A program made the position numbers and the translations under genes. Positions 26,411 through 42,408 of a stretch of 43,342 nucleotides of DNA are shown piece after piece. The number at the start of each line of letters is the position of its first letter. Within the stretch, counting starts at the first letter, position 1. Origin of the DNA: Deltaproteobacteria bacterium (GTDB taxonomy: Bacteria > Desulfobacterota > Desulfomonilia > Desulfomonilales > Desulfomonilaceae); assembly GCA_021777225.1 (NCBI GenBank), contig JAJYDQ010000033.1, positions 1 to 43,342 of the forward strand, given 5' to 3'. The notes beneath the pieces are model-generated. The model was not told where the DNA came from. It ran no database searches and was given only the letters and a program-made list of their open reading frames with translations.

Positions 26411-28369
26411 ATGGAAGAGCATCAAATTAGAAATACGGAATATACAGTACTCAATCAGGTTCAGTCACCGGAAGACCTCAAGAAATTGCCTTTTGAATCG
26501 CTTAAGACACTTAGTGATGAGGTCCGGGACCTCATCATTAGAACAGTCTCGGACAATGGAGGCCATTTGGCGTCCAGTCTAGGGGTCGTCGAATTGACGA
26601 TTGCGCTGTTAAGGGTTTTTTCTCCGCCGGAGGATCGGATTGTTTTTGATGTAGGACATCAGGCATATGCTTACAAGATATTGACCGGCCGACGGGACAG
26701 GTTCCATTCTTTAAGGTCAAGGGGAGGAATTGCGGGATTCCCCAAGCGAAGAGAAAGCGAGTATGATTTTTTCGACACAGGCCACGCCGGCAATGCTATC
26801 AGCGTGGCCGCCGGATTTGCCCAGGCCCGCTGTTTGAGTGGAGAGGACCACAAGGTCATTGCGCTGGTTGGTGATGGATCTCTTACTTGTGGTGTTTCTT
26901 ACGAAGGATTAAATCAGGCCGGCGCCGCAGAAAAGGACCTTATAATAATCCTGAACGACAACGAGATGTCTATTTCACCGAATGTGGGGGCCATGGCCGC
27001 CTACTTGAACCGGATCATGACCGGTCAAGTTGTTACCCGATTCAGAAACGAAATCAAGAGTATCCTGAAGAATATTCCGGGATTTATGGGCCGTTCCATT
27101 TACGGTGTCGCCCGTCAATTCGAAGATGCTTTAAAGGGTTTCATTACGCCGGGACGTCTTTTTGAGGACCTTGGTTTCAATTACGTGGGGCCAATCGACG
27201 GGCATCACTTGCGGCATTTGATTGAGACCCTAACCAATGTGAAAAGATTTCGAAAGCCAGTGCTTTTGCACACTATTACTTGCAAGGGGAAAGGTTATTG
27301 TTGCGCTGAGGAGGATCCAAGCATGTTTCACGGCGTTGGGCCGTTTGAAATAGCAACTGGCAAGGCACGCGCATCCGACAACTCTCCTACATATACTGCC
27401 GTGTTTGGGCAAACAATGATCAAACTGGCCGAAAGAGACCCAAAAATCATGGCAATAACAGCGGCCATGGAATATGGAACGGGTTTGGCCGTATTCGGAG
27501 AAATCTTTCCCAAAAGGTTCTTTGATGTCGGCATAGCGGAACAACACGGCGTAATTTTCGCCGCTGGTTTGGCTTGCGAGGGTTATAAACCTGTTGTGGC
27601 TATATATTCAACGTTCTTTCAACGTGGTTATGATCATATAATTCATGATGTTTGCATGCAGAATTTACCGGTAATTTTCGCTATGGATAGGGCTGGTGTC
27701 GTAGGAGAGGATGGTCCGACGCATCATGGGGTCTTTGATGTGGCCTTTACCAGAAATGTGCCGAATCTAGTGGTAATCGCCCCTTCCTCAGAAGATGAAC
27801 TGGCTGACATGCTCTTTACCGCGATTGAATCGGGATCGCCTTGCGCTATACGGTATCCTCGAGCAAAAGGCGTTGGGGTTCCAATAAAGGATTTCCCTGA
27901 GATCGTTCCCTTGGGTAAAGGGGCGATTGTCCGGCACGGGAGTGATCTTGTCATGCTGGCGTTGGGGTCCATGCTGTATCCAGCTCTCCAAGCGGCTGAG
28001 ATTCTCGAGACATTTGGTATTTCTGCCTGCGTCGTAAATCCAAGATTTGTAAAACCTCTTGATAGTGAGTTGATTGTACGACTGGCGCGGGCCACTGGTC
28101 GTGTGATAACCGTCGAAGAGGGTGTTCTTGCCGGCGGATTTGGTAGCGCAGTTCTAGAACTGCTGGCCGACGAAGGATTGACTGACGTTAAGGTTATACG
28201 CCTTGGAATTCCAGATGTGTTTGTAGAACACGGGACTCGAAACGAACTTCTCGAGGATTACGGATTAACTCCGCAGGGTATAGCCAATGCCGCTTACACT
28301 TTTTATAAAACTAATACTGTATTGAACCGGACTTCCCATAATGAATCGCTAGGCGCAGGCCCTCACTGA
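26411..28369 (+). CDS. dxs: 1-deoxy-D-xylulose-5-phosphate synthase
   Basis: The 652-residue transketolase-family enzyme has LASSLGVVELTIALLRVF, FDVGHQAYAYKILTGR, the thiamine diphosphate motif GDGSLTCGVSYEGLNQAG...NDNEMSISPNVGA, and the pyrimidine-domain segment DVGIAEQHGVIFAAGLA. It makes DXP from pyruvate and glyceraldehyde-3-phosphate, the first step of the non-mevalonate isoprenoid pathway. It closes the xseB-ispA-dxs unit, 18 bases after ispA. Length is normal. The last 20 residues are not conserved. Confidence 0.97.
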   Translation: MEEHQIRNTEYTVLNQVQSPEDLKKLPFESLKTLSDEVRDLIIRTVSDNGGHLASSLGVVELTIALLRVFSPPEDRIVFDVGHQAYAYKILTGRRDRFHSLRSRGGIAGFPKRRESEYDFFDTGHAGNAISVAAGFAQARCLSGEDHKVIALVGDGSLTCGVSYEGLNQAGAAEKDLIIILNDNEMSISPNVGAMAAYLNRIMTGQVVTRFRNEIKSILKNIPGFMGRSIYGVARQFEDALKGFITPGRLFEDLGFNYVGPIDGHHLRHLIETLTNVKRFRKPVLLHTITCKGKGYCCAEEDPSMFHGVGPFEIATGKARASDNSPTYTAVFGQTMIKLAERDPKIMAITAAMEYGTGLAVFGEIFPKRFFDVGIAEQHGVIFAAGLACEGYKPVVAIYSTFFQRGYDHIIHDVCMQNLPVIFAMDRAGVVGEDGPTHHGVFDVAFTRNVPNLVVIAPSSEDELADMLFTAIESGSPCAIRYPRAKGVGVPIKDFPEIVPLGKGAIVRHGSDLVMLALGSMLYPALQAAEILETFGISACVVNPRFVKPLDSELIVRLARATGRVITVEEGVLAGGFGSAVLELLADEGLTDVKVIRLGIPDVFVEHGTRNELLEDYGLTPQGIANAAYTFYKTNTVLNRTSHNESLGAGPH

Positions 28370-28657: not shown

Positions 28658-30058
28658 TCACAGGCCTCCGCTGAAAGCCGCCGCATTTGCGACCGCAGTA
28701 GCTACTGCGGGGCACACGCCCTTGTTGAAGATGCCTGGGATTATGTTTTGATCAGCCAGTTCATCTTCCGGGATTAAGCCAGCGATTGCGGCGGATGCCG
28801 CCAGTCTCATCTCCCGCGTAATTTTCCTTGCGCGGACACTTAAGGCCCCTTTGAAAATTCCAGGGAAAACAAGAGCGTTATTAATCTGATTAGGGAAGTC
28901 ACTTCGACCTGTAGCGACTATCTGAGCATAATCGAGCGCCTCCCATGGGTTGACTTCAGGTATAGGATTAGCAAGGGCGAAAACGATGGATTTCGGGGCC
29001 ATGACTTCAAGATCCTTTGGATCGAGCAGGTTTCCTGCGGATAGTCCAATGAATACATCGACTCCAACCAGCGCTTCCTTGAGTGGACTCTGGATACCTT
29101 CAGGATTGGTGAGTCGGGCAATTTCTTCCTTGATTGGATTCATACCTTCAACCCGACCAGGATATAAGGCCCCCGAGCGGTCGCAACAGAGAATTTGGCG
29201 CGCTCCGGCTTCTAGTAGAGTCTTGATACATGCCACACCAGCCGCGCCTGTTCCGGAAACAAGAATTCTAACGTCACTCAAGCGTTTACCCACCCTCTTG
29301 AGGGCGTTCCTCAAAGCCGCCAGGACGGCAATTGACGTGCCATGCTGATCATCATGGAACACTGGGATGTCGAGTTCTTCCGTCAACCGTTTTTCAACCT
29401 CAAAACATCTTGGAGCTGAAATATCCTCGAGGTTTACGGCGGCGAAAACAGGGCTGATGGCTTTAACTGCGGCCACAATTTCATCGGTGGTAGACGCGTT
29501 TAAGCAGATGGGGAATGCGTTGACCCCGGCGAACTCCTTGAACAACATGGACTTTCCTTCCATGACAGGCAGGGCCCCAAGAGGGCCGATGTTGCCTAAC
29601 CCGAGTACAGCGGACCCATCAGTCACAATTGCTACCGTATTTCCTTTTATGGTATACTTATAAGCTTCTTCGGCGTTTCTAGCTATGGCCATAGAGATTC
29701 GACCAACACCAGGAGTATAGGCCATCGAAAGATCTTCCCGGCCTGCTAGCCTCTTTGTGGGGGTTATCTCTATTTTCCCACCCTTATGATATTGAAATGT
29801 CCGGTCGGTGACGGCGATTACTTCCACTTGAGGCATTGCCTTAAGGGTATCAACTATTCGTTGCTCGTGATTTTCATCGCTGGCGTAAATGTCAAAATCC
29901 CTTATGACATGGTCTTTTTGAATTTTTACAATAGGAATTGAGCCTACCAGAGCGTCCATCTCACCTATTGTTGTAGCAATTCTGGCCAACGCTCCGGGAC
30001 GTCTCTCAAACCTGACTCTAATGGTGAGACTATGACTGGGACTTGATTGAACGAGCAT
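28658..30058 (-). CDS. NAD(P)-dependent malic enzyme with an N-terminal ACT domain
   Basis: The 466-residue protein has an ACT domain at about 10-85 (LTIRVRFERRPGALARIATTIGEMDA) fused to a short-form malic enzyme: MAYTPGVGRISMAIA, the NTVAIVTDGSAVLGLGNIGPLGALPVMEGK core, PVFHDDQHGTSIAVLAAL with metal ligands, and the dinucleotide site VSGTGAAGVACIKTL. It converts malate to pyruvate and CO2. The ACT domain suggests allosteric control by a small molecule, probably an amino acid; this fusion is known in other bacteria. It is transcribed divergently from pyruvate kinase, so the pair covers the pyruvate node. An AGGAGG-like sequence precedes the ATG. Confidence 0.95.
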   Translation of the reverse strand: MLVQSSPSHSLTIRVRFERRPGALARIATTIGEMDALVGSIPIVKIQKDHVIRDFDIYASDENHEQRIVDTLKAMPQVEVIAVTDRTFQYHKGGKIEITPTKRLAGREDLSMAYTPGVGRISMAIARNAEEAYKYTIKGNTVAIVTDGSAVLGLGNIGPLGALPVMEGKSMLFKEFAGVNAFPICLNASTTDEIVAAVKAISPVFAAVNLEDISAPRCFEVEKRLTEELDIPVFHDDQHGTSIAVLAALRNALKRVGKRLSDVRILVSGTGAAGVACIKTLLEAGARQILCCDRSGALYPGRVEGMNPIKEEIARLTNPEGIQSPLKEALVGVDVFIGLSAGNLLDPKDLEVMAPKSIVFALANPIPEVNPWEALDYAQIVATGRSDFPNQINNALVFPGIFKGALSVRARKITREMRLAASAAIAGLIPEDELADQNIIPGIFNKGVCPAVATAVANAAAFSGGL

Positions 30059-30417: not shown

Positions 30418-31851
30418 ATGGCGCTTCCGCTTAACAAAACGAAAATAGTTTGCACAATCGGTCCAGCTTCCAGGTCGCCTGAAACCATAGAGCAGATGGT
30501 ACTGGCAGGCATGAATGTGGCCAGGATCAATTTCTCTCACGGGGACTTTACAGATCATAATGAAGTGATAGCAAATATACGTGAGGTTTCCTCCCGACAC
30601 GGGCGAGATGTGGCTATTCTGGCGGATCTGCCCGGTCCAAAGATTCGGATAGGAAACCTCAAAGAGGAGCCTGTGGAATTGAGGACCGGGGATCAAATTT
30701 CCCTTACCATTGACGAAATTCAAGGTGATCGGAACCGTGTTTCTGTGAATCTGCCCAATCTTCCACAAACGGTTAAAAAGGGTGATCAGATATTCTTGAA
30801 CGATGGTCTCATTCAGCTCGAGGCAGTCAGCATTACGGGCCACGATGTAAATTGTGTCGTTCGGGTGGGGGCGGAATTACGGTCCAGAAAGGGTTTGAAC
30901 CTCCCCGGGATATCCTTGGGTATAGGAGCGTTTACAGACAGAGACTATGAATGTCTTCGATTTGCCTTGGATCATCAGGTGGACGCCGTAAGCCAGTCGT
31001 TCGTCGAGTCAGCTTCCGACATAGGCGCTCTTCGAGACGCAGCGTCGGTACTTGGGGCCAGCCCGTTTGTAATAGCCAAGATCGAAAGATCACGAGCGCT
31101 GGACAATATTGATGAAATTCTTGCGGCTGCTGATGGCATAATGATTGCTCGCGGTGATCTCGGGGTTGAGACGCCAATCGAGCGAATTGCGCTGGTTCAA
31201 AAAGAGATCATGGCAAAGGCGAATACACTTGGCAAACCTGTCATAACAGCTACCCAGATGCTTGAATCCATGACCAGTAACAGAAGACCAACTCGGGCCG
31301 AATCAACCGATGTAGCGAATGCGATTCTTGATGGGACGGACTGTGTAATGCTATCGGCCGAATCCGCCACTGGTCAGTACCCTATAGACGCTGTAGCCAC
31401 ACTCTCGAGGATTGCTTCTGCCACTGAAGCCTACCGATGTCAGCGGCCGATTGGACATTTCCTGGCTATGCCGGAAATCGACGAGAAACTCAACATACGA
31501 GACTTGATCGCTGTCAGCGTGAAAAACGCGGTGGAGCATGTACAGCCCGCCGTGATCTTTGCTCCGACTCGTTCAGGGGCTTCAGCTCGTAGCATGAGTC
31601 GTTTTAAGCTCCCGGTCTGGGTTGTTGCTGTGAGTTCCCTGCAGACCACGTGTAGGAGGCTGCAATTCTCCTACGGCGTTATTCCTGAGCTTGTTGATGA
31701 GGATCCTGACGACTGGCGAGCCTTTACCGGCGAGTGGCTAAACCGTCATGACATTGACGGAAAACTCGTTGTTTTGACTCAAGGTCCATCAGCCAAGCAT
31801 CCGGAAACCAACAACCGCATGGAGATAGTCGATCTTTCAAGAGTGTTCTGA
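30418..31851 (+). CDS. pyk: Pyruvate kinase
   Basis: The 477-residue protein has the full pyruvate kinase barrel: KTKIVCTIGPASRSPETIEQM, ARINFSHGD, DLPGPKIRIG, the metal-binding IMIARGDLGVE and TATQMLESM, followed by a C-terminal regulatory-type domain. It transfers phosphate from phosphoenolpyruvate to ADP, the last step of glycolysis. AGGTGA lies 4 bases before the ATG. It is divergent from the malic enzyme gene. The last 50 residues look like a normal C-terminal domain without a phosphohistidine extension. Confidence 0.97.
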   Translation: MALPLNKTKIVCTIGPASRSPETIEQMVLAGMNVARINFSHGDFTDHNEVIANIREVSSRHGRDVAILADLPGPKIRIGNLKEEPVELRTGDQISLTIDEIQGDRNRVSVNLPNLPQTVKKGDQIFLNDGLIQLEAVSITGHDVNCVVRVGAELRSRKGLNLPGISLGIGAFTDRDYECLRFALDHQVDAVSQSFVESASDIGALRDAASVLGASPFVIAKIERSRALDNIDEILAAADGIMIARGDLGVETPIERIALVQKEIMAKANTLGKPVITATQMLESMTSNRRPTRAESTDVANAILDGTDCVMLSAESATGQYPIDAVATLSRIASATEAYRCQRPIGHFLAMPEIDEKLNIRDLIAVSVKNAVEHVQPAVIFAPTRSGASARSMSRFKLPVWVVAVSSLQTTCRRLQFSYGVIPELVDEDPDDWRAFTGEWLNRHDIDGKLVVLTQGPSAKHPETNNRMEIVDLSRVF

Positions 31852-32155: not shown

Positions 32156-35100
32156 CTATCGATAGCCTTGGTTTTTTGTTTTAAATATCCGGTGAATAAC
32201 TACATAAAAGAGTGGAATGAAGAAAACCGCTAGGAATGTTCCAGTTATCATTCCTCCTAAAACGCTTGTGCCGATTGCTTTTTGAGCGCCCGCGCCGGCT
32301 CCCGAGGCTAATGCCAGCGGTAGTACTCCGAAGCCAAACGCCAGCGATGTCATAACTATCGGTCGTAGCCGCAATTTTGCCCCTTCCAGGGTTGCTTCGA
32401 CTATTCCTATTCCCTCTCCCAGCTTATCCTTTGCGAATTGTACGATAAGAATGGCGTTCTTGGTGGTCAACCCCAAGGTAGTGAGAAGCCCTATCTGGAA
32501 ATAGACGTCGTTTGGTAATCCTCTAAATGACGAAGCCAGTACCCCTCCAATCGCTCCAAGAGGCAACGCGAGCATGATCGAAAATGGAACAGTCCAACTC
32601 TCGTAAAGAGCCGCGAGAAAAAGGAAGATCACTAACATGGAAAATGCGTAAAGCATGGGCGCCTGGGAACTCGCCATGCGTTCCTGGTAGGAAAGACCGT
32701 TCCAGTCAAATCCGATACCTGTGGGTAACTTCGACACAATCTCTTCCATGGTCCGCATCGCCTCGCCTGAACTCCTTCCCGGGCCTGGTTCACCCCATAT
32801 GTTTATGGACGGAAAAGAGTTATAGCGCTCCAGTTTTGGAGAACCCGAAATCCAGCGTCCGGACGCAAAAGAAGAAAAGGGGACCATCTTACTCGCTGCA
32901 TTGCGCACATAGAGTTTCTCGAGGTCTTTGGGCAACATCCGATATGGAGAGTCCGCCTGAGCATATACGCGTTTGACCCGCCCGGCCTGGATAAAGTCAT
33001 TGACATAGGCGCTACCGAAGGCCGCTGAGATGGTGGTGTGGATGGATGTGATGGGGGTTCCCAGAGCGCCTGCTTTTCTCCAATCCACGTCAATTCGATA
33101 TTGGGGAACATCTTCCAGACCGTTGGGACGAACCCTCGTCAATCTTGGGTCTTGCATGGCCATTCCCAAGAGTTGATTACGGGCCATCATCAGGTTGGTG
33201 TGGCCTAAACCTCCACGATCCTGTAATTGAAAATCAAACCCCTTGGCCTGACCGAGTTCGATGACAGCCGGTGGCGGAAACGCGAACACCATGGCATTGC
33301 GGATCTTTGAGAACGCATCCATGGCCCTTCCAGCCAAGGCATCAGCCTTCAGATCGGGTCGGTCGCGAAGCTTCCAGTCTTTGAGCTTAACAAATGCCAG
33401 GCCCACGTTCTGTCCATTTCCGGAAAAGCTGAAACCGGCGATCGTCATGCAGGATTCAACAGCGTCTTTTTCAGTTACCAGGAAATGGTAGTTCACCTTC
33501 TTCAAGACCTCCTCGGTTTGTTCCATTGTCGAATTTGCCGCAAGCATCGCCTGAACAAAAAGTATTCCCTGATCTTCATCAGGGAGATACGCAGTGGGCA
33601 TGCGCTGAAACAGGAACCCTAACGCGACCACAATTAGCAGGAATACAAACAGGTAGCGCAGTTGTCTTGAAAGGACACGACCGACCATCATCATGTACCT
33701 GTCTCGGGCCCAAAAGAACATGTGGTCGAACCACAGCAAGAACGGCCGAAAAAGAAAAAATCCGGTCTCAGCCGCCTCATGGCCTTTTCCCGTAGTTTTG
33801 AGAAGCGACGCGCATAGAACTGGTGTGAGTATTAGGGCGACGACAACCGACAGGAGCATAGAGGCTATAATGGTCACGGAAAACTGTCGGTAGATAACAC
33901 CGGTGGAGCCTGCAAAGAAAGCCATCGGGCCGAATACTGCGGAAAGGACCAAGCCAATTCCGATCAGCGCGCTGGTTATCTCTCCCATAGACTTTCTGGC
34001 CGCTTCCTTCGCCGAAAGACCTTCCTCACTCATGATTCGTTCCACGTTTTCCACCACCACGATGGCGTCGTCTACCAATAGCCCGATAGCCAGCACCATA
34101 GCAAACATAGTCAGCATGTTGATGGAAAACCCGAATAGCCCCAGAAGCGCAAAGGTCCCGAGGATCACCACCGGCACAGCGATGGTCGGAATCAGGGTAG
34201 CCCGGATGTTTCCGAGGAAAAGATACATGACCAGGAAGACCAGCAGGATGGCCTCAAAAAGGGTCTTGACAACCTCCTCGATGGCTGCTGTGACAAAGGG
34301 GGTTGTGTCGTATGGATATATTACCTTCATCCCCTGCGGGAAATACCGGCTCATCTCTTTCAGCTTTGCTTTGACAGCGTTAGCCGTATCAAGCGCGTTA
34401 GCTCCGGCTGACTGCCGGATGGCCTGCGCAGCCGCGGGTTTACCGTTGTAGACGGCAAACTGATTGTAGAACTCGGCGCCTAATTCGGTCCGTCCCACAT
34501 CCTTTATCCGCACCACGGACCCATCCGGATTCATACGGATTGGGATTGCGGCGAATTCTTCAGGGGTCTTGAGAAGGTTTTGGACAATAATCGAAGCATT
34601 CAAACGCTGACCTTCCACAGCGGGCGCTCCGCCGAACTGACCAGCCGAGACCTCCACATTGTAGGCGCGAAGCGCAGTAATGACGTCTTCAACAGTCATT
34701 TGGTATTCAGTAAGTTTATCAGGGTTTAGCCATACTCGCATAGCGTACTGGGAGCCGAAACTTTCAACCTCGCCCACTCCCGGCACACGTGCCAGGACCT
34801 TCTCGAGATTGGACTGGGCATAGTCTTCCAAGTCCTTGTCGTCCATGCTTCCATCTTCTGAGATCAGGCCTACCACCATTAGATAGTTTTTGGTCGATTT
34901 GCTGACCTTAACGCCTTGGCGCTGGACGACCTCCGGCAGGCTTGCCGTGGCGAGCTGGAGTTTGTTTTGCACTTGAGCCCAAGCAAGATCCGGGTCAGTT
35001 CCCGGAGCAAAGGTCAACTCGATGCGGGAGGCTCCGGTTGAATCACTGGTGGAAGACATATACAGCATTTTGTCAAAGCCGGTCATCTTCTGTTCAATGA

Positions 35101-35293
35101 TCTGCGTCACGCTGTTTTCAACCGTCTCAGCCGAAGCCCCAGGATAAATGGAGTCAATCGCGATTGATGGCGGAGCGATCGGTGGATACTGTGATATGGG
35201 TAGATTGTATATTGCCAGGCCGCCCGCTACGATCATGATAATTGCTATGACCCAGGCGAAGACCGGACGGTCCAGAAAGAACTTTGATAGCAT
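32156..35293 (-). CDS. RND efflux pump, HAE1/AcrB family inner-membrane transporter
   Basis: The 1045-residue protein is a full-length hydrophobe/amphiphile RND pump. It begins MLSKFFLDRPVFAWVIAIIM, has the TM4 proton-relay pair in GLLVDDAIVVVENVERIM and the TM10 lysine in TTKNAILIVQFAKD, with two large periplasmic loops. Such pumps expel lipophilic drugs, detergents or solvents through a tripartite complex powered by the proton gradient. The membrane fusion protein gene lies 12 bases upstream and a TetR repressor gene before that. No TolC-type outer membrane channel gene is present beside it, so it must share one encoded elsewhere. The substrate cannot be told from the sequence. Confidence 0.96.
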   Translation of the reverse strand: MLSKFFLDRPVFAWVIAIIMIVAGGLAIYNLPISQYPPIAPPSIAIDSIYPGASAETVENSVTQIIEQKMTGFDKMLYMSSTSDSTGASRIELTFAPGTDPDLAWAQVQNKLQLATASLPEVVQRQGVKVSKSTKNYLMVVGLISEDGSMDDKDLEDYAQSNLEKVLARVPGVGEVESFGSQYAMRVWLNPDKLTEYQMTVEDVITALRAYNVEVSAGQFGGAPAVEGQRLNASIIVQNLLKTPEEFAAIPIRMNPDGSVVRIKDVGRTELGAEFYNQFAVYNGKPAAAQAIRQSAGANALDTANAVKAKLKEMSRYFPQGMKVIYPYDTTPFVTAAIEEVVKTLFEAILLVFLVMYLFLGNIRATLIPTIAVPVVILGTFALLGLFGFSINMLTMFAMVLAIGLLVDDAIVVVENVERIMSEEGLSAKEAARKSMGEITSALIGIGLVLSAVFGPMAFFAGSTGVIYRQFSVTIIASMLLSVVVALILTPVLCASLLKTTGKGHEAAETGFFLFRPFLLWFDHMFFWARDRYMMMVGRVLSRQLRYLFVFLLIVVALGFLFQRMPTAYLPDEDQGILFVQAMLAANSTMEQTEEVLKKVNYHFLVTEKDAVESCMTIAGFSFSGNGQNVGLAFVKLKDWKLRDRPDLKADALAGRAMDAFSKIRNAMVFAFPPPAVIELGQAKGFDFQLQDRGGLGHTNLMMARNQLLGMAMQDPRLTRVRPNGLEDVPQYRIDVDWRKAGALGTPITSIHTTISAAFGSAYVNDFIQAGRVKRVYAQADSPYRMLPKDLEKLYVRNAASKMVPFSSFASGRWISGSPKLERYNSFPSINIWGEPGPGRSSGEAMRTMEEIVSKLPTGIGFDWNGLSYQERMASSQAPMLYAFSMLVIFLFLAALYESWTVPFSIMLALPLGAIGGVLASSFRGLPNDVYFQIGLLTTLGLTTKNAILIVQFAKDKLGEGIGIVEATLEGAKLRLRPIVMTSLAFGFGVLPLALASGAGAGAQKAIGTSVLGGMITGTFLAVFFIPLFYVVIHRIFKTKNQGYR

Positions 35294-35305: not shown

Positions 35306-36496
35306 TCAGTTCGATTTTCCCGCCGGCCAAGTCTTAGTCCCGGTTTCCGAATCAGCCTTCGCTACAGATTCAAAAGGGATGACCTTTACTGCAACACCTG
35401 GCCGAATTTTCTGCGTGCCTTCGACGATCACACGATCGCCTGATGCAAGGCCCGAAGACACGAGCCACTTGTCCCCGATAGCACGATCTAGCGCCAGCCT
35501 TCTCTGCTGGACCTTGTCGCCGGCTTCCACGACTAGCGCAGTGGGATTACCCTTTGGGTCGCGTGATACTGCTTGCTGGGGAACAAGAATGGCCTGATCG
35601 TTTATACCTTCCTCCACCACTGCCCTGACGAACATGCCCGGAAGTAGAAGTCCTTCTGGATTTGGGAACACCAGCCTCAGGACTACAGACCCGGTTGAGG
35701 GATCTACAGTGACATCACGAAACAAAAAATTCCCTTCCAACGGATACGATTTGCCATTTTCCAGGATGAGCTTGACTTTCTTCTGATTCGCTCCGTCTCG
35801 ATTCAGACGGCCATCTTCCAGGCGTCGCTTTAATTGCAGCAGTTCAGTGGTGGATTGCGGAACATCTACATATATGGGGTCGAGTTGTTGAATGGTTGCC
35901 AGTACCAGGGCCTGATAAGCTGTCACCAAGGCGCCATCGGTCACGTTGGATTTGCCGATGCGCCCCGAGATGGGAGCGGTGACACGGGTATAGCTCAAAT
36001 TGATACGGGAAGTATTAACAGCAGCCTTGCAATACTCGATATCAGCTTCAGCCTGTTTCAGAGCGGCCTCCTTGTCGTCGTAGTCCTGTTGGCTGACAGC
36101 GTTTTTGGCAAGCAATGTTTTGGATCGTTCAGCCGTCAACCAGACAGCATGACAATTGGCCTCCGATTTCGCGAGGGCGGCTTCAGCACTGTCCAGTGAC
36201 GCCTGAAAAGGAGCGGGATCAATCTGATAAAGCACCTGGCCAGCCTTAACATCGGAACCCTCCTCAAACATGCGTTTCTGAATGATTCCATTGACCTGCG
36301 GTCGGATCTCAGCGACGAGAAAGGCGGACGTTCGGCCAGGCAATTCAGTTGTCAGCAGAAGCTGCTCAGGCTGAACCATCATTGCAGTCACTTCAGGGAG
36401 ACTTTTCGAGGTATGTTGCCTCTGTTGATCGCATCCAAAAAGAAGTAACGCTGCGCTAGTGACTGCCGCAAATGCCAAAAGCCTTTGCAAAATCAT
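35306..36496 (-). CDS. RND efflux membrane fusion (periplasmic adaptor) lipoprotein
   Basis: The product of 396 residues begins MILQRLLAFAAVTSAALLLFGC, a lipoprotein signal with the acylated Cys. It then shows the AcrA architecture: lipoyl half (AEIRPQVNGIIQKRMFEEGSDVKAGQVLYQIDP), a helical hairpin, the second lipoyl half (LSYTRVTAPISGRIGKSNVTDGALV) and a beta-barrel domain. It links the RND pump to an outer membrane channel. The start is uncertain: an ATG at 36599-36601, eight bases after tetR and preceded by AGGAA, would add a 35-residue leader before the signal peptide, which is unusual. The gene is co-transcribed with tetR and the pump. Confidence 0.92.
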   Translation of the reverse strand: MILQRLLAFAAVTSAALLLFGCDQQRQHTSKSLPEVTAMMVQPEQLLLTTELPGRTSAFLVAEIRPQVNGIIQKRMFEEGSDVKAGQVLYQIDPAPFQASLDSAEAALAKSEANCHAVWLTAERSKTLLAKNAVSQQDYDDKEAALKQAEADIEYCKAAVNTSRINLSYTRVTAPISGRIGKSNVTDGALVTAYQALVLATIQQLDPIYVDVPQSTTELLQLKRRLEDGRLNRDGANQKKVKLILENGKSYPLEGNFLFRDVTVDPSTGSVVLRLVFPNPEGLLLPGMFVRAVVEEGINDQAILVPQQAVSRDPKGNPTALVVEAGDKVQQRRLALDRAIGDKWLVSSGLASGDRVIVEGTQKIRPGVAVKVIPFESVAKADSETGTKTWPAGKSN

Positions 36497-36608
36497 GACG
36501 AACCGTTGATGGGCAGTGTAATCGTGAATCTCAGCGTTAGAGCTTTTACATCGATCGTTTCCCTTTCGATGGTAATATTTCGTGGTTTTTCCCTGCATCA
36601 TTTTATTC

Positions 36609-37256
36609 CTAGTCCAGAACACCATTGAAAAAAATTTCCGCGGCGGCTGACAAGTTATCCGTCTCGCGAGATCGGGTGGGATCTTCCATCATCCGGAAAA
36701 GAAAAGAGTTGATTGTTCCTTCAAGCGCCAGAGCCATATAATAGGGATCAAGGCTCCGAAACACATGATCTTTGATGCCCTTCTCAAAGATTGAAGCCAA
36801 TAGCCCGATTCCTTCATCGTAAAGCTTAAGAATGTCCTGGTCCAAACCAGCTTTTATGTTAAAGCTCGCTCCTCTGGTTTCGGCAAAATACAGGCGCATG
36901 ACCGGTAGATTGTTGAAAAACAGTTCTCGACGGACGGCGATGTACCTGTTGATGGCTTCAAGAGGATTCCGTTCCTGTTCGAGGACCTGCATGAGAGCAT
37001 GGTGATACTTTTCTGCCATCTCCATGATAAGGGCTTTGTACAAGTCCTCCTTATTACGAAAGAATTTATATAATGTTCCGATTCCGAACTCTGCTTCACT
37101 GGCTATCTCATGCATGGAGACGTTGTGATACCCTTTTTCTGAGAAGAGTTTCAGCGCAGCTTCGAGTATTTCTCCGCGCTGCCGCAATTTTTCTCGATCC
37201 CTCCGAGGGAGGCTTTCAGGTATTGCATTGGCGGCTTCCATCGATGAAATACTCAT
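36609..37256 (-). CDS. TetR/AcrR-family transcriptional repressor
   Basis: The 215-residue protein has the TetR DNA-binding domain at about 25-75 (ILEAALKLFSEKGYHNVSMHEIASEAEFGIGTLYKFFRNKEDLYKALI) and an all-helical ligand-binding C-terminal half. It is first in the operon tetR-adaptor-pump, so it most likely represses its own operon until a pump substrate binds. A perfect palindrome lies 27-46 bases before its ATG and over the predicted -10 box. AAGGAG precedes the start at good spacing. Confidence 0.93.
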   Translation of the reverse strand: MSISSMEAANAIPESLPRRDREKLRQRGEILEAALKLFSEKGYHNVSMHEIASEAEFGIGTLYKFFRNKEDLYKALIMEMAEKYHHALMQVLEQERNPLEAINRYIAVRRELFFNNLPVMRLYFAETRGASFNIKAGLDQDILKLYDEGIGLLASIFEKGIKDHVFRSLDPYYMALALEGTINSFLFRMMEDPTRSRETDNLSAAAEIFFNGVLD

Positions 37257-37282
37257 TTACTTCTCCTTGTGACATCATATTC

Positions 37283-37302
37283 AGAATGTGACGTCACATT
37301 CT
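37283..37302. promoter_or_regulatory. Perfect palindromic operator, probably bound by TetR
   Basis: AGAATGTGACGTCACATTCT is a perfect 20-bp palindrome, the size and symmetry usual for TetR-family operators. It overlaps the predicted -10 box of the tetR-adaptor-pump operon, so bound repressor would block RNA polymerase. The binding protein is inferred from position. Confidence 0.75.
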
Positions 37303-37326
37303 CTTACTCCCTGAGGTGACAGTCAA
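37298..37326 (-). promoter_or_regulatory. Likely promoter of the tetR-efflux operon
   Basis: On the minus strand TTGACT (37321-37326) and GAGAAT (37298-37303) are 17 bases apart, 42 bases before the tetR ATG. The -35 matches consensus at five of six positions. The -10 is weaker but lies inside the palindrome half-site. Confidence 0.55.
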
Positions 37327-37609
37327 GAAAAAATCATCATTCAACAAACAATTATGAGAGTTGCGAGATTTCGACCCCTGGGGTTAGATCATGGGGGTTT
37401 CGGGAAACATGCCACGTAAGTTTCCCATTTATAAGAATTACTTGTTTGCCCGAGAGGTAACATTGGCGATGATGCCGTTCGGTAGAAACACTAGGCGGAG
37501 GGACGCTGTCAATGTTCTTGGTGTCGAATTCCGTAATTATGATAGATAATGCGTGGTTTCCAAAAAGAGTTGAAAAATCTTTTGGATTTTAAGACCACGT
37601 CCTATTGAA

Positions 37610-37847
37610 CTACAGTTTCGCGATTTCTGAATGTTTGAATTCGCGCGGATAGCGCGGCTGGTTGGTTTTTTGCAACTTAATGATATCTGTGGCCTCAGGA
37701 GAAATTCTAATAGAGAAATGACTCCTTCTTGCCGACGCGAGCATGTCGGAAAAGGTGAAAGATTTTTTTGACGATACCATGAGCGGTGAAACACCGCATA
37801 AATCTAATCCCGTAAATTCCAAAAGGATATGGTATTTCTTTTTTCAT
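37610..37847 (-). pseudogene. Possible small gene with a one-base frameshift after the start
   Basis: A strong ribosome-binding site (AAGGAGG, 37856-37862 region) precedes an ATG at 37845-37847, but the frame after it gives only an unremarkable 46-residue peptide. If the run of six A after the ATG were five, the product would read MKKKYHILLEFTGLDLCGVS and continue for about 78 residues with good protein-like composition (SSKKSFTFSDMLASARRSHF, PEATDIIKLQKTNQ) to the TAG at 37610. I do not recognise the family. It may be a pseudogene, a slippage-controlled gene, a sequence error or chance. Confidence 0.35.
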
Positions 37848-38078
37848 CTTGGCGTTCCTCCTTCCCCCTTGTTTGTTTCCAAAAAACGGGTTCGCGCGGA
37901 ACGCCTTGTTTTTCAACCATTATTCACCCGCCCCACTGACTTTTCATACAAAAAAGGCGAAACTTTAGACCAACATAATGTTGAACCTAAATTGCAATAC
38001 TTTTCTCAAAATGAACGCGACAATTATCTGTGAACACCTGGACGACCAATGTTACAAGTGGTCTTAAAGCCGCACAAA

Positions 38079-38543
38079 TTAGATAGATTTGGTTTCTTTT
38101 GGGAACTCGGATTTCCTGTGGCTCGGATTGGAATTGGATTTTTGTCTTGAATTCAACAGGAAATATGCGCCCGCTAATGACAACATCAAAATACCCATGT
38201 CAGAAAAAGTTAAACTTGACAGCTTGCTCTGATCCAGAATAATAATTTTTCTCGCCATGGCGACCAGCGCCACGATCAATATGATTTGAGCGCTTATAAT
38301 CCGGTCCTTGTGAAACGAGTATATAGTTTCCATTAATTCCAGCCCGATTAATACCAACAATAACATCCCGAACAGTTCCAGAAGGTTATCTACCTTCAGA
38401 ATTAAGACTGGTGGGGCAAATACATCCTTCACCATCAGATAACCAACATCGACAGTGGCCAAAATTATAACGACAGCAATTATGATCATCAGAATGTAAC
38501 TTATAAATCTCTCAAATTTTTTTAGGAGATTGGATACATCCAT
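38079..38543 (-). CDS. PsiE-like membrane protein
   Basis: The product of 154 residues has four predicted membrane segments (YILMIIIAVVIILATVDVGYLMV, LELFGMLLLVLIGLELMETIY, IISAQIILIVALVAMARKIIIL, FSDMGILMLSLAGAYFLL). The motif LLELFGMLLLVLIGLELMETI and ALVAMARKIIILD resemble the phosphate-starvation-inducible PsiE family. The function of PsiE is unknown. The ATG at 38541-38543 has GGAG 6 bases upstream and is favoured over one four codons earlier. An HdeD-like gene lies 117 bases upstream on the same strand. The charged C-terminal tail is not conserved. Confidence 0.8.
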   Translation of the reverse strand: MDVSNLLKKFERFISYILMIIIAVVIILATVDVGYLMVKDVFAPPVLILKVDNLLELFGMLLLVLIGLELMETIYSFHKDRIISAQIILIVALVAMARKIIILDQSKLSSLTFSDMGILMLSLAGAYFLLNSRQKSNSNPSHRKSEFPKETKSI

Positions 38544-38660
38544 ACTGGACTCCATAAAGACGACAATTTACATGGACCGAGACGTTGGTTATGCTTTTAT
38601 GCCACTTCATTTTCCAAATTTGATCGACGCATTCATATTCAACACTTGGGGTAGATATTT

Positions 38661-39251
38661 CTATATAGAGGCGGTCTTATTCGCCTTTCTGGCAGCCAGA
38701 GCGATGAAGATGTAAGACCATCCGTTTGTGATAAGTTCTATAGCGATAAAAAGGCCTATAACAAAGAGGCCGGATAGTGGCCAATGGGTCAGAATAATTC
38801 CTCCCAAAATTATAGATATTACACCCCCGACCAAAGGCACAAACCAGCTTCCCATTCCTCGCATCTGCAGGGCCATGACTACGCGGACTATGCCGATGCA
38901 CATGAGCGCAGCCCCAAGCACCCACGTCAGAAGCATCTTAGCTGCAAAGGGTTCTTGAATGACAAAAACACCTGCAATTATATAAAGAGCAGCCATCAGA
39001 ACGTGGTATATGACGCTTTTCCATCCCAGACATTTTAGGGCTTCGATCAACTGCGCCACCCCACCAACGATAAAAAGTATTCCAAAAAACAAGGTGCCGG
39101 CCAAAGAAAGAACAAAAAGTCTTCCAAGACCGACTAACCCCAGGATGATGAAAAGGACTCCCATACCGAAGAGCCATCCCCAGTTCTTGCCCAAATCGCC
39201 TAAAATGGCTTCCGAAGCCTTTGCCGAAGATTTGTCAACTTGACTTGCCAT
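38661..39251 (-). CDS. HdeD-family membrane protein
   Basis: The 196-residue protein has six membrane segments in the HdeD pattern (NWGWLFGMGVLFIILGLVGL, GTLFFGILFIVGGVAQLIEAL, YHVLMAALYIIAGVFVIQEPFAA, LLTWVLGAALMCIGIVRVVMAL, WFVPLVGGVISIILGGIIL, LFVIGLFIAIELITNGWSYI). HdeD is linked to acid resistance in enterobacteria; elsewhere its role is not known. AAGGAGGA lies before the ATG. It may be co-transcribed with the PsiE-like gene. The region directly upstream on the other strand is a decayed segment. Confidence 0.87.
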   Translation of the reverse strand: MASQVDKSSAKASEAILGDLGKNWGWLFGMGVLFIILGLVGLGRLFVLSLAGTLFFGILFIVGGVAQLIEALKCLGWKSVIYHVLMAALYIIAGVFVIQEPFAAKMLLTWVLGAALMCIGIVRVVMALQMRGMGSWFVPLVGGVISIILGGIILTHWPLSGLFVIGLFIAIELITNGWSYIFIALAARKANKTASI

Positions 39252-40392: not shown

Positions 40393-42408
40393 ATGACTGA
40401 ACAGAAGAAGCCTAACGAGAACATATCCCGCAAGATCGCAACGCGGGATGGCGTGCATGAACTCAAGGACGAAAACCCGATCAGGCATTTTCACAAGAAG
40501 GGGAAAATGCCTTCGAAATTCACCGTGGAGATGCAGCAAGAACTTCGAAAGACTCTCCCATTTGAGGACCAGCGGGATTTTGAGGAAAGTAAAAGAGGCT
40601 TCATCGCCGCGCCACCTTACAAACAGATCAAAGCCGAGGCAGGCAATGTGGCCTGGGATATTGGCAGTTACGAGTTCCTTCTTGAAGACAAGGACATTGA
40701 CTCCATCCATCCCTCTTTGCAGAGGCAGGCCATCCTAAACATGTCTTACGGTCTATACGAAGTGTTGCCGGACAAGATTTACCAGGTGCGCGGCTTCGAC
40801 CTTGCCAATATGACCTTTATCAAGGGTGACACAGGCTGGATAGTGTTCGATACGCTAACCACCAAAGAAACCGCAGAAGCAGCGCTGGCTTTCATCAATG
40901 AAAATCTTGGCCAGCGTCCGGTAGTGGCAGTTGTCTATTCGCATTCCCACGTAGATCATTACGGAGGCGTTCGAGGTATCGTGAACGAGGAGGATGTCCT
41001 GAGCGGCAAAGTACCGATTATCGCACCAATAGGCTTCATGGAACACGCTGTTTCCGAGAATGTACATGCCGGTAACGCAATGAACCGGCGTCTGTTTTAT
41101 CAGTATGGAGCCCTACTGCCAAGAAGCCCATTCGGTCATGTGGATCAAGCTATTGGCAAGAGCGTTGCCCTGGCCAATATTGGCCTAATTCCGCCAACTC
41201 GGTTAATCGCGCAAGACATCGAGGAACTGAGCGTCGACGGCGTGAAAATGGTGTTTCAAAATACGCCTGGCACAGAGGCGCCAGCGGAGATGAACACATG
41301 GTTTCCGGACTTCAAGGCTTTCTGGGCCGCGGAGAACATCACAGGCACGGTTCATAACATTTACACCTTGCGCGGCGCTCTCATCCGTGATCCGCTGTTG
41401 TGGTCTAAAAAGATCAATGAAGCGCTTTATTTTTTTGGCCAGGAGGCTGAGGTCATGTTTTCGTCACATAATTGGCCACGTTGGGGAAATGCTCGTATCC
41501 AGGAAGTCATGCGAACGCAGCGTGACATCTATGCAAACCTTAACAACGAGGTCCTTCACCTGGCCAACAAAGGTGTGACTATCAACGAGGTGCACAATGT
41601 TTACAAGCCACCAAAGAGTTTGCAGGAACAATGGGCTGCTCACAGCTATCACGGTTCAGAAGAACATAACAGCCGTGCGGTTATCAACCGGTATCTCGGT
41701 TACTGGGACTGCAATCCTGCCACGTTGACACCACTTTCACCACGCGATTCAGCGCCTCTCTACGTGGAAATGATGGGGGGCGCCAGCAAGATCATAAAAA
41801 AGGGAAAAGAACTGTACGATCAAGGGAAATACAGATACGCTCAAGAGATCTTGAACAAACTTGTCTATGCTGAACCGACCAACCGGGAGGCCAAGGATCT
41901 GCTAGCGGATGTATTTGAGCAGATCGGGTACCAGAAGGAAAGCTCAAGCTTGCGCAACAGTTTCCTCGCAGCAGCCCATGAACTGAGGTCAGGTATTGCC
42001 AACATTCCGGTGAAGTCTTCCAGTCCGGATACGATTCGGGCAATTTCCACGGATTTGTGGCTCGACTTCTTGGGGATTATGATCGACACCCAGAAGGCAG
42101 AAGGCATTAAGTTCATCATGAACTTAGTTCATCCTGATATCGACGAGAAGTACGTCGTCGAGATGAGTAACGCTACTCTTACCAGCGCAAAGGGTTTTAA
42201 GGCGAACAACCCTGATATTACTTTAACCATTAATCGCTCAGACCTGGAAACTGTTATGCTGGGCAATTCCTCATTCGTTGAGCAGGTTAGAGCTGGCAAA
42301 GCAAAACTGGAGGGCAATCCAGAACCTTTAATGCAACTAATGAGCGTTTTGGTTCAATTTACACCTGACTTCGAGATAATGCCTGGAACTAAAGGCCAAA
42401 GACCATAA
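40393..42408 (+). CDS. Metallo-beta-lactamase-fold alkylsulfatase (SdsA1/YjcS family)
   Basis: The 671-residue protein has a metallo-beta-lactamase domain with the zinc motif VYSHSHVDHYGG (His184, His186, Asp188, His189), the family signatures NTPGTEAPAEMNTWFPD and MFSSHNWPRWGNARI, a helical dimerisation domain (about 460-530, EMMGGASKIIKKGKELYDQGKYRYAQEILNKLV) and an SCP2-like C-terminal domain (about 545-665). These enzymes hydrolyse sulfate esters of alkyl chains such as dodecyl sulfate and need no formylglycine. SdsA1 is exported; no signal peptide is visible here, so it is probably cytoplasmic. GGAGG lies 6 bases before the ATG. The neighbourhood of pseudogenes and a transporter suggests an acquired segment. 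Confidence 0.94.
   Translation: MTEQKKPNENISRKIATRDGVHELKDENPIRHFHKKGKMPSKFTVEMQQELRKTLPFEDQRDFEESKRGFIAAPPYKQIKAEAGNVAWDIGSYEFLLEDKDIDSIHPSLQRQAILNMSYGLYEVLPDKIYQVRGFDLANMTFIKGDTGWIVFDTLTTKETAEAALAFINENLGQRPVVAVVYSHSHVDHYGGVRGIVNEEDVLSGKVPIIAPIGFMEHAVSENVHAGNAMNRRLFYQYGALLPRSPFGHVDQAIGKSVALANIGLIPPTRLIAQDIEELSVDGVKMVFQNTPGTEAPAEMNTWFPDFKAFWAAENITGTVHNIYTLRGALIRDPLLWSKKINEALYFFGQEAEVMFSSHNWPRWGNARIQEVMRTQRDIYANLNNEVLHLANKGVTINEVHNVYKPPKSLQEQWAAHSYHGSEEHNSRAVINRYLGYWDCNPATLTPLSPRDSAPLYVEMMGGASKIIKKGKELYDQGKYRYAQEILNKLVYAEPTNREAKDLLADVFEQIGYQKESSSLRNSFLAAAHELRSGIANIPVKSSSPDTIRAISTDLWLDFLGIMIDTQKAEGIKFIMNLVHPDIDEKYVVEMSNATLTSAKGFKANNPDITLTINRSDLETVMLGNSSFVEQVRAGKAKLEGNPEPLMQLMSVLVQFTPDFEIMPGTKGQRP

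Follow-up and report, generated by a model that had tools for sequence, protein, structure and literature searches.

A predicted TetR-family operator over the promoter of a tetR-adaptor-pump locus in a Desulfomonilaceae bacterium

MtrR of Neisseria gonorrhoeae is a TetR-family repressor that controls the mtrCDE efflux operon by way of a degenerate dyad (PMC8053128). TetR proteins occupy operators of 15-17 bp as a single dimer and operators of 22-32 bp as a pair of dimers, and QacR and CprB, whose operators are 28 and 22 bp long, respectively, recruit two dimers cooperatively (PMC4150764). The locus described here lies in a stretch of 43,342 nucleotides from a deltaproteobacterium (contig JAJYDQ010000033.1), the whole of which was analyzed and is called the window. 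It resembles the MtrR/mtrCDE system in combining a predicted TetR-family repressor, an efflux operon and a dyad, but the MtrR consensus given in PMC8053128, MCRTRCRN4YGYAYGK, differs from the core TGACGTCA discussed below. Like the operators of QacR and CprB, the 20-bp palindrome of the window could suit two dimers, and it fits the one-dimer mode too; unlike them, the relatives of the locus carry a second copy in tandem at 20 bp, and no orthology is claimed.

The window encodes, in order on the minus strand, a TetR-family regulator of 215 aa (36609-37256; Pfam TetR_N, 64 bits, cut-off 24, E = 1.1e-17), an RND periplasmic adaptor of the MexA/AcrA type (35306-36625; NCBIfam RND_mfp, 286.6 bits, cut-off 94.9) and an AcrB-type RND pump of 1045 aa (32156-35293; TIGR00915, 1579 bits, cut-off 940). 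These assignments agree with the initial annotation, which had placed the palindrome in front of a tetR-adaptor-pump operon. The predicted fold of the regulator is helical (mean pLDDT 84.9), its top PDB matches are TetR-family proteins with TM-scores of 0.5-0.7 by query length, and the FadR structures 3whb and 5gpa are among the structural matches. With TetR_N above the curated cut-off and a modeled helical fold like that of solved TetR proteins, the regulator is assigned to the TetR family. Because the listed ATG of the adaptor overlaps tetR, its true start is probably further in; the similarity among relatives starts near 36460, about 150 bp past tetR, and the true gap between the two genes is not fixed. 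Past the pump, the next long frame (30418-31851) runs on the opposite strand, thus no outer-membrane channel gene follows the pump directly. Near the operon are also genes for a PsiE-type membrane protein (38079-38555), a DUF308/HdeD-like membrane protein (38661-39251) and an alkyl-sulfatase-like protein with a metallo-beta-lactamase fold (40393-42408).

Among the NCBIfam models, the best match of the regulator is FadR of Bacillus, at 56.3 bits and far under the cut-off of 200, while the MtrR model gives 50.8 bits, below its cut-off of 280. The operator of Bacillus FadR is a TGAATGA...TCATTCA dyad, which resembles the GAAT-N4-ATTC found in far TetR relatives of the window regulator; unlike FadR, the regulator has RND efflux genes as its neighbors. 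In this respect the locus is like those of AcrR and the acrEF/envCD regulator, where a TetR gene adjoins an AcrAB-type pump, and the scores on the two corresponding models, 39.1 bits (cut-off 271) and 29.7 bits (cut-off 274), are both below threshold. Among the matches listed from the open-licence literature, no bacterial TetR or other repressor operator with TGACGTCA or GTGACGTCAC was described. The predicted switch is sound but fairly ordinary, of a kind that is biologically expected, with an operator that was not found described in that literature. What the locus adds is a candidate repressor-operator pair, evidence tying the motif to the regulator, a possible tandem second site and, for a TetR group whose genes are often found ahead of RND efflux genes in sulfate reducers and syntrophs, a transferable operator motif. 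The motif allows pump regulation to be predicted from sequence in named isolates, e.g., Desulfobulbus rhabdoformis and Desulfosarcina alkanivorans.

The predicted main operator, AGAATGTGACGTCACATTCT, occupies positions 37283-37302 and is a perfect 20-bp palindrome, symmetric in 10 of 10 base pairs, as the initial annotation had claimed; it is also the longest gap-free palindrome of the window. When the window as a whole was shuffled 200 times with dinucleotides preserved, 13 of the shuffles contained a palindrome of at least 20 bp. On the minus strand, a -35 box TTGACT (37326-37321) and a weak -10 box GAGAAT (37303-37298) are separated by a 17-bp spacer and match the consensus at 9 of 12 positions; the palindrome covers five of the six -10 bases, so that the overlap and spacing noted earlier were recovered. 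By hand count, the -35 box lies 30 bp from the core TGAC. This pair is one of six promoter-like sites found in a scan of 2.2 kb (36500-38700), where 4.5 +/- 2.1 are expected, and no Rfam match to an RNA element was obtained in the same interval at E values up to 1. The poor -10 box counts against the operator reading, and many relatives have TATAAT or a similar hexamer in the same columns. Neither the length of the palindrome nor the promoter-like pair is compelling on its own; the position and the comparison across relatives are. Another long perfect palindrome of the window, CCGCAGTAGCTACTGCGG (18 bp, 28693-28710), lies within a frame of 466 aa (28658-30058).

TetR relatives were collected by a search of 60 relative genomes, which gave 30 loci including that of the window, and from named genomes, where 59 of 62 loci were used. 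This yielded 79 non-redundant upstream regions, 71 of them from relatives with at least 40% TetR identity, and the eight below 40% were counted apart. Six loci (L003, L004, L005, L007, L008 and L009) were left out as duplicates of named loci, three (L048, L052 and L015) for near-identical upstream sequence, and four more because only 43 bp of upstream sequence was present (L062) or identity was 26-32% (L099-L101); the pairs L002/L041, L040/L041, L014/L018 and L047/L061 were retained despite common 30-mers. Part of the named relatives was picked with peptide patterns that take in the DNA-binding domain (YHNVSMHE), which biases the sample towards like operators. The nearest named relatives of the regulator come from metagenome genomes labeled Syntrophaceae (88% and 78% identity) and Desulfomonile (68%), which makes a host from this part of the Thermodesulfobacteriota probable. 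Conservation in the two nearest was set aside as evidence because the whole 350 bp upstream is conserved and adds nothing; across these roughly 350 non-coding bp (37257-37609), identity to them is 78-96% per 50-bp block, then falls to 50-66%. Perfect symmetry was likewise rejected as a conserved trait, since the same two relatives keep 8 of the 10 pairs (AGAATGTGACGTCAGGTTCT).

The most frequent 8-mer in the 71 upstream regions is TGACGTCA, found in 21 of them. When the far relatives are included, 21 of 79 regions contain it, compared with a mean of 0.22 and a largest value of 2 over 50 shuffle rounds, and it is absent from the first 200 coding bases of all 79 genes. At a threshold of 12 bits, a motif model iterated from the TGACGTCA sites, with the consensus TATAATRTGACGTCAYRTTC, detects sites in 56 of the 71 regions, compared with a mean of 0.28 and a largest value of 1 over 50 shuffle rounds; scanned over the initial 200 bases of these genes, it detects a site in 0 of 71. 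A permissive threshold of 7 bits gives 103 sites in 63 of 71 regions, with a shuffled mean of 3.0. In a 5-fold held-out model, 55 of 71 regions had a site, and a harder hold-out, in which 13 loci (L010-L023) were scanned after training on L044 onward, retained 6 of 13, compared with a shuffled mean of 0.02. The 15 regions without a 12-bit site include that of L042 (68% identity) on the gene strand. Furthermore, with a model trained on the 59 regions whose TetR is below 60% identity, the palindrome ranks first and second in the whole window (27.0 bits on the plus strand and 22.5 bits on the minus strand), followed by a match of 15.0 bits at 28321-28344, inside a coding frame, and by the possible second copy, here at 37262-37285 with 12.8 bits. 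Single matches of 14-16 bits prove little, because such scores also occur inside coding frames, as at 28321-28344 and in L115 (below). The position relative to the promoter is conserved as well: of the 56 regions with a site of at least 12 bits, 46 have TTGAC[AT] at most 60 bp ahead of the last site, and in 29 of the 56 it begins 29 or 30 bp upstream of the TGAC core.

Whether the site goes with the regulator or with the pump was addressed at 25 pump loci whose adaptor is at least 57% identical. Sixteen carry the TetR gene, two of which are cut by a contig end, leaving 14 that could be evaluated. With the full model, all 14 have a site of at least 12 bits on either strand (in L110 only opposite the gene strand), and 11 of 14 reach this value with a model from 55 regions that excludes the pump loci, the scores of L120, L122 and L127 dropping to 7.4-10.3 bits. 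In contrast, no site was found at eight of eight pump loci whose adaptor has no close TetR next to it, where the largest scores were 7.8 bits (full model) and 7.9 bits (held out). A ninth such locus, L115, had a match near the pump of genome G010 (15.9 bits, 13.7 held out); it lies inside a kinase-like ORF of 671 aa and was set aside, and this genome does have a TetR gene 2.4 kb upstream of the adaptor. Among the 59 named loci, scanned with the full model, the site is present in 25 of 32 evaluable TetR relatives followed by a close adaptor, in 12 of 14 that have a distant adaptor only, in 9 of 10 for which no adaptor was found and in the single divergent case; a close adaptor follows TetR in 34 of the 59. 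The site therefore tracks the regulator rather than the pump. In L081 (3491-5621), the genes of a close adaptor and pump point away from TetR instead of lying downstream of it, and two sites 20 bp apart stand in between.

We conclude, with a probability of roughly 0.85, that the TetR-family regulator encoded directly downstream has the palindrome as its operator. The operator and the autoregulation predicted by the initial annotation gain support from the conservation of the site in TetR relatives, from its conserved distance to the -35 box and from the way it tracks the regulator, not the pump. By comparison of sequences, the site is conserved with the regulator, is fixed relative to the -35 box and tends to double at 20 bp in relatives. 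As in a local autorepressor of an efflux operon, the predicted dyad lies over the promoter of the regulator's own gene and is conserved with that gene. Beyond this, we infer direct binding, the choice of repression over activation, an inducer, the stoichiometry, the use of a second copy and the transcription of the three genes as one unit. One TetR dimer, or two as a pair, would occupy 37283-37302, perhaps assisted by a weaker copy at 37268-37282, and would cover the -10 box and the presumed start of the tetR-adaptor-pump promoter. Repression by blocking of RNA polymerase is proposed because the site sits over the -10 box. A small molecule, probably a substrate of the pump, would then free TetR, and regulator and pump would rise together.

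Other readings of the palindrome were weighed against this one. Another, perhaps global, regulator, for example one of the CRP/FNR type, might bind it and control the pump, as the half TGTGA looks like a CRP half-site; however, CRP half-sites are separated by 6 bp, whereas the halves of the palindrome are 2 bp apart. The absence of the site from all eight pump loci without a close TetR (the intragenic match of L115 set aside), its persistence beside TetR when the adaptor is distant (12 of 14) and the uniqueness of the 20-mer in the genome at up to three mismatches make such control quite improbable. A functionless palindrome produced by base composition would fit the 13 of 200 shuffled windows and the imperfect symmetry of the nearest relatives, but it is scarcely credible given that 56 of 71 upstream regions have a related core, compared with a mean of 0.28 after shuffling, and that the distance of this core to the -35 box is fixed in 29 of 56.

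It is also unlikely that TetR activates instead of repressing, or that it governs tetR alone while the pump has a separate promoter. In favor of these readings, the weak -10 box could need help, and the start of the adaptor, and with it the tetR-adaptor gap, is not fixed; however, a site over the -10 box and the start region is in the position of a repressor, and the three genes stand in order on one strand, with a close adaptor after TetR in 34 of the 59 named loci.

The genome search for more copies suggested by the initial annotation was run on the 4.04-Mb draft (97.6% completeness), and no other match to the 20-mer was found at up to three mismatches, on the basis of which TetR is probably an autorepressor with one target. 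The sites of relatives differ by more than three mismatches, so that weaker targets could escape this search. A wider regulon was sought with a looser 16-mer, AATRTGACGTCAYATT, and rejected: at one mismatch it matches 2 of 41 genomes, compared with 3 of 41 for the reversed control, and the pattern is insensitive, missing TetR-bearing relatives such as G002 and G010. In the host genome, the second match of the 16-mer falls within an ORF, presumably tatD-like from its sequence, and was taken as chance.

Many relatives carry more than one site. The spacing of successive sites is exactly 20 bp in 29 of 40 cases at the 7-bit threshold, and pairs 19-21 bp apart occur at 12 bits in 25 of 71 regions, against none in 50 shuffle rounds. 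In L092, L060 and L087, for example, copy 1 fills the spacer between the -35 and -10 boxes and copy 2 joins the -10 box. In the window, the second position is taken by the perfect palindrome and, instead of a spacer copy, there is a weaker copy 19 bp downstream, seen as a 15-nt direct repeat, TGTGACATCATATTC (37268-37282) and TGTGACGTCACATTC (37287-37301), whose units are 87% alike and which had been missed earlier. With the full model the weaker copy scores 15.0 bits on the plus strand and 0.3 on the gene strand, and no more than half of it is retained in L006 and in L040, L041 and L042, the last three keeping GTCA. Because of this one-strand score and partial retention, 37268-37282 is held as a possible, not an established, second operator copy.

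All eight far TetR relatives (30-37% identity) have GAA[TC]-N4-[AG]TTC upstream, against a shuffled mean of 0.19, and in three of the eight such motifs are paired 19 bp apart; this count is suggestive only, because the pattern was chosen after viewing the same sequences. A tentative reading, to which we give somewhat less than even odds, is that this TetR clade has an operator grammar of its own, with two and sometimes three in-phase copies at 19-20 bp, the first inside the spacer between the -35 and -10 boxes and the second fused to the -10 box, the core being TGACGTCA in close members and GAA[TC]-N4-[AG]TTC in far ones. Dimers would be stacked along the promoter; in the window, two of them would sit on opposite faces of the palindrome, which would hold a 12-bp site for each, GAATGTGACGTC and its complement, the two sites overlapping. 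In L027, L030 and L031, the TetR start is preceded by pairs of GAAT-N4-ATTC-like dyads spaced at exactly 19 bp. In L021, a 43% relative, the usual motif is replaced by a long inverted repeat with complementarity at 20 of 21 positions, whose arms start 96 and 65 bp before the TetR match.
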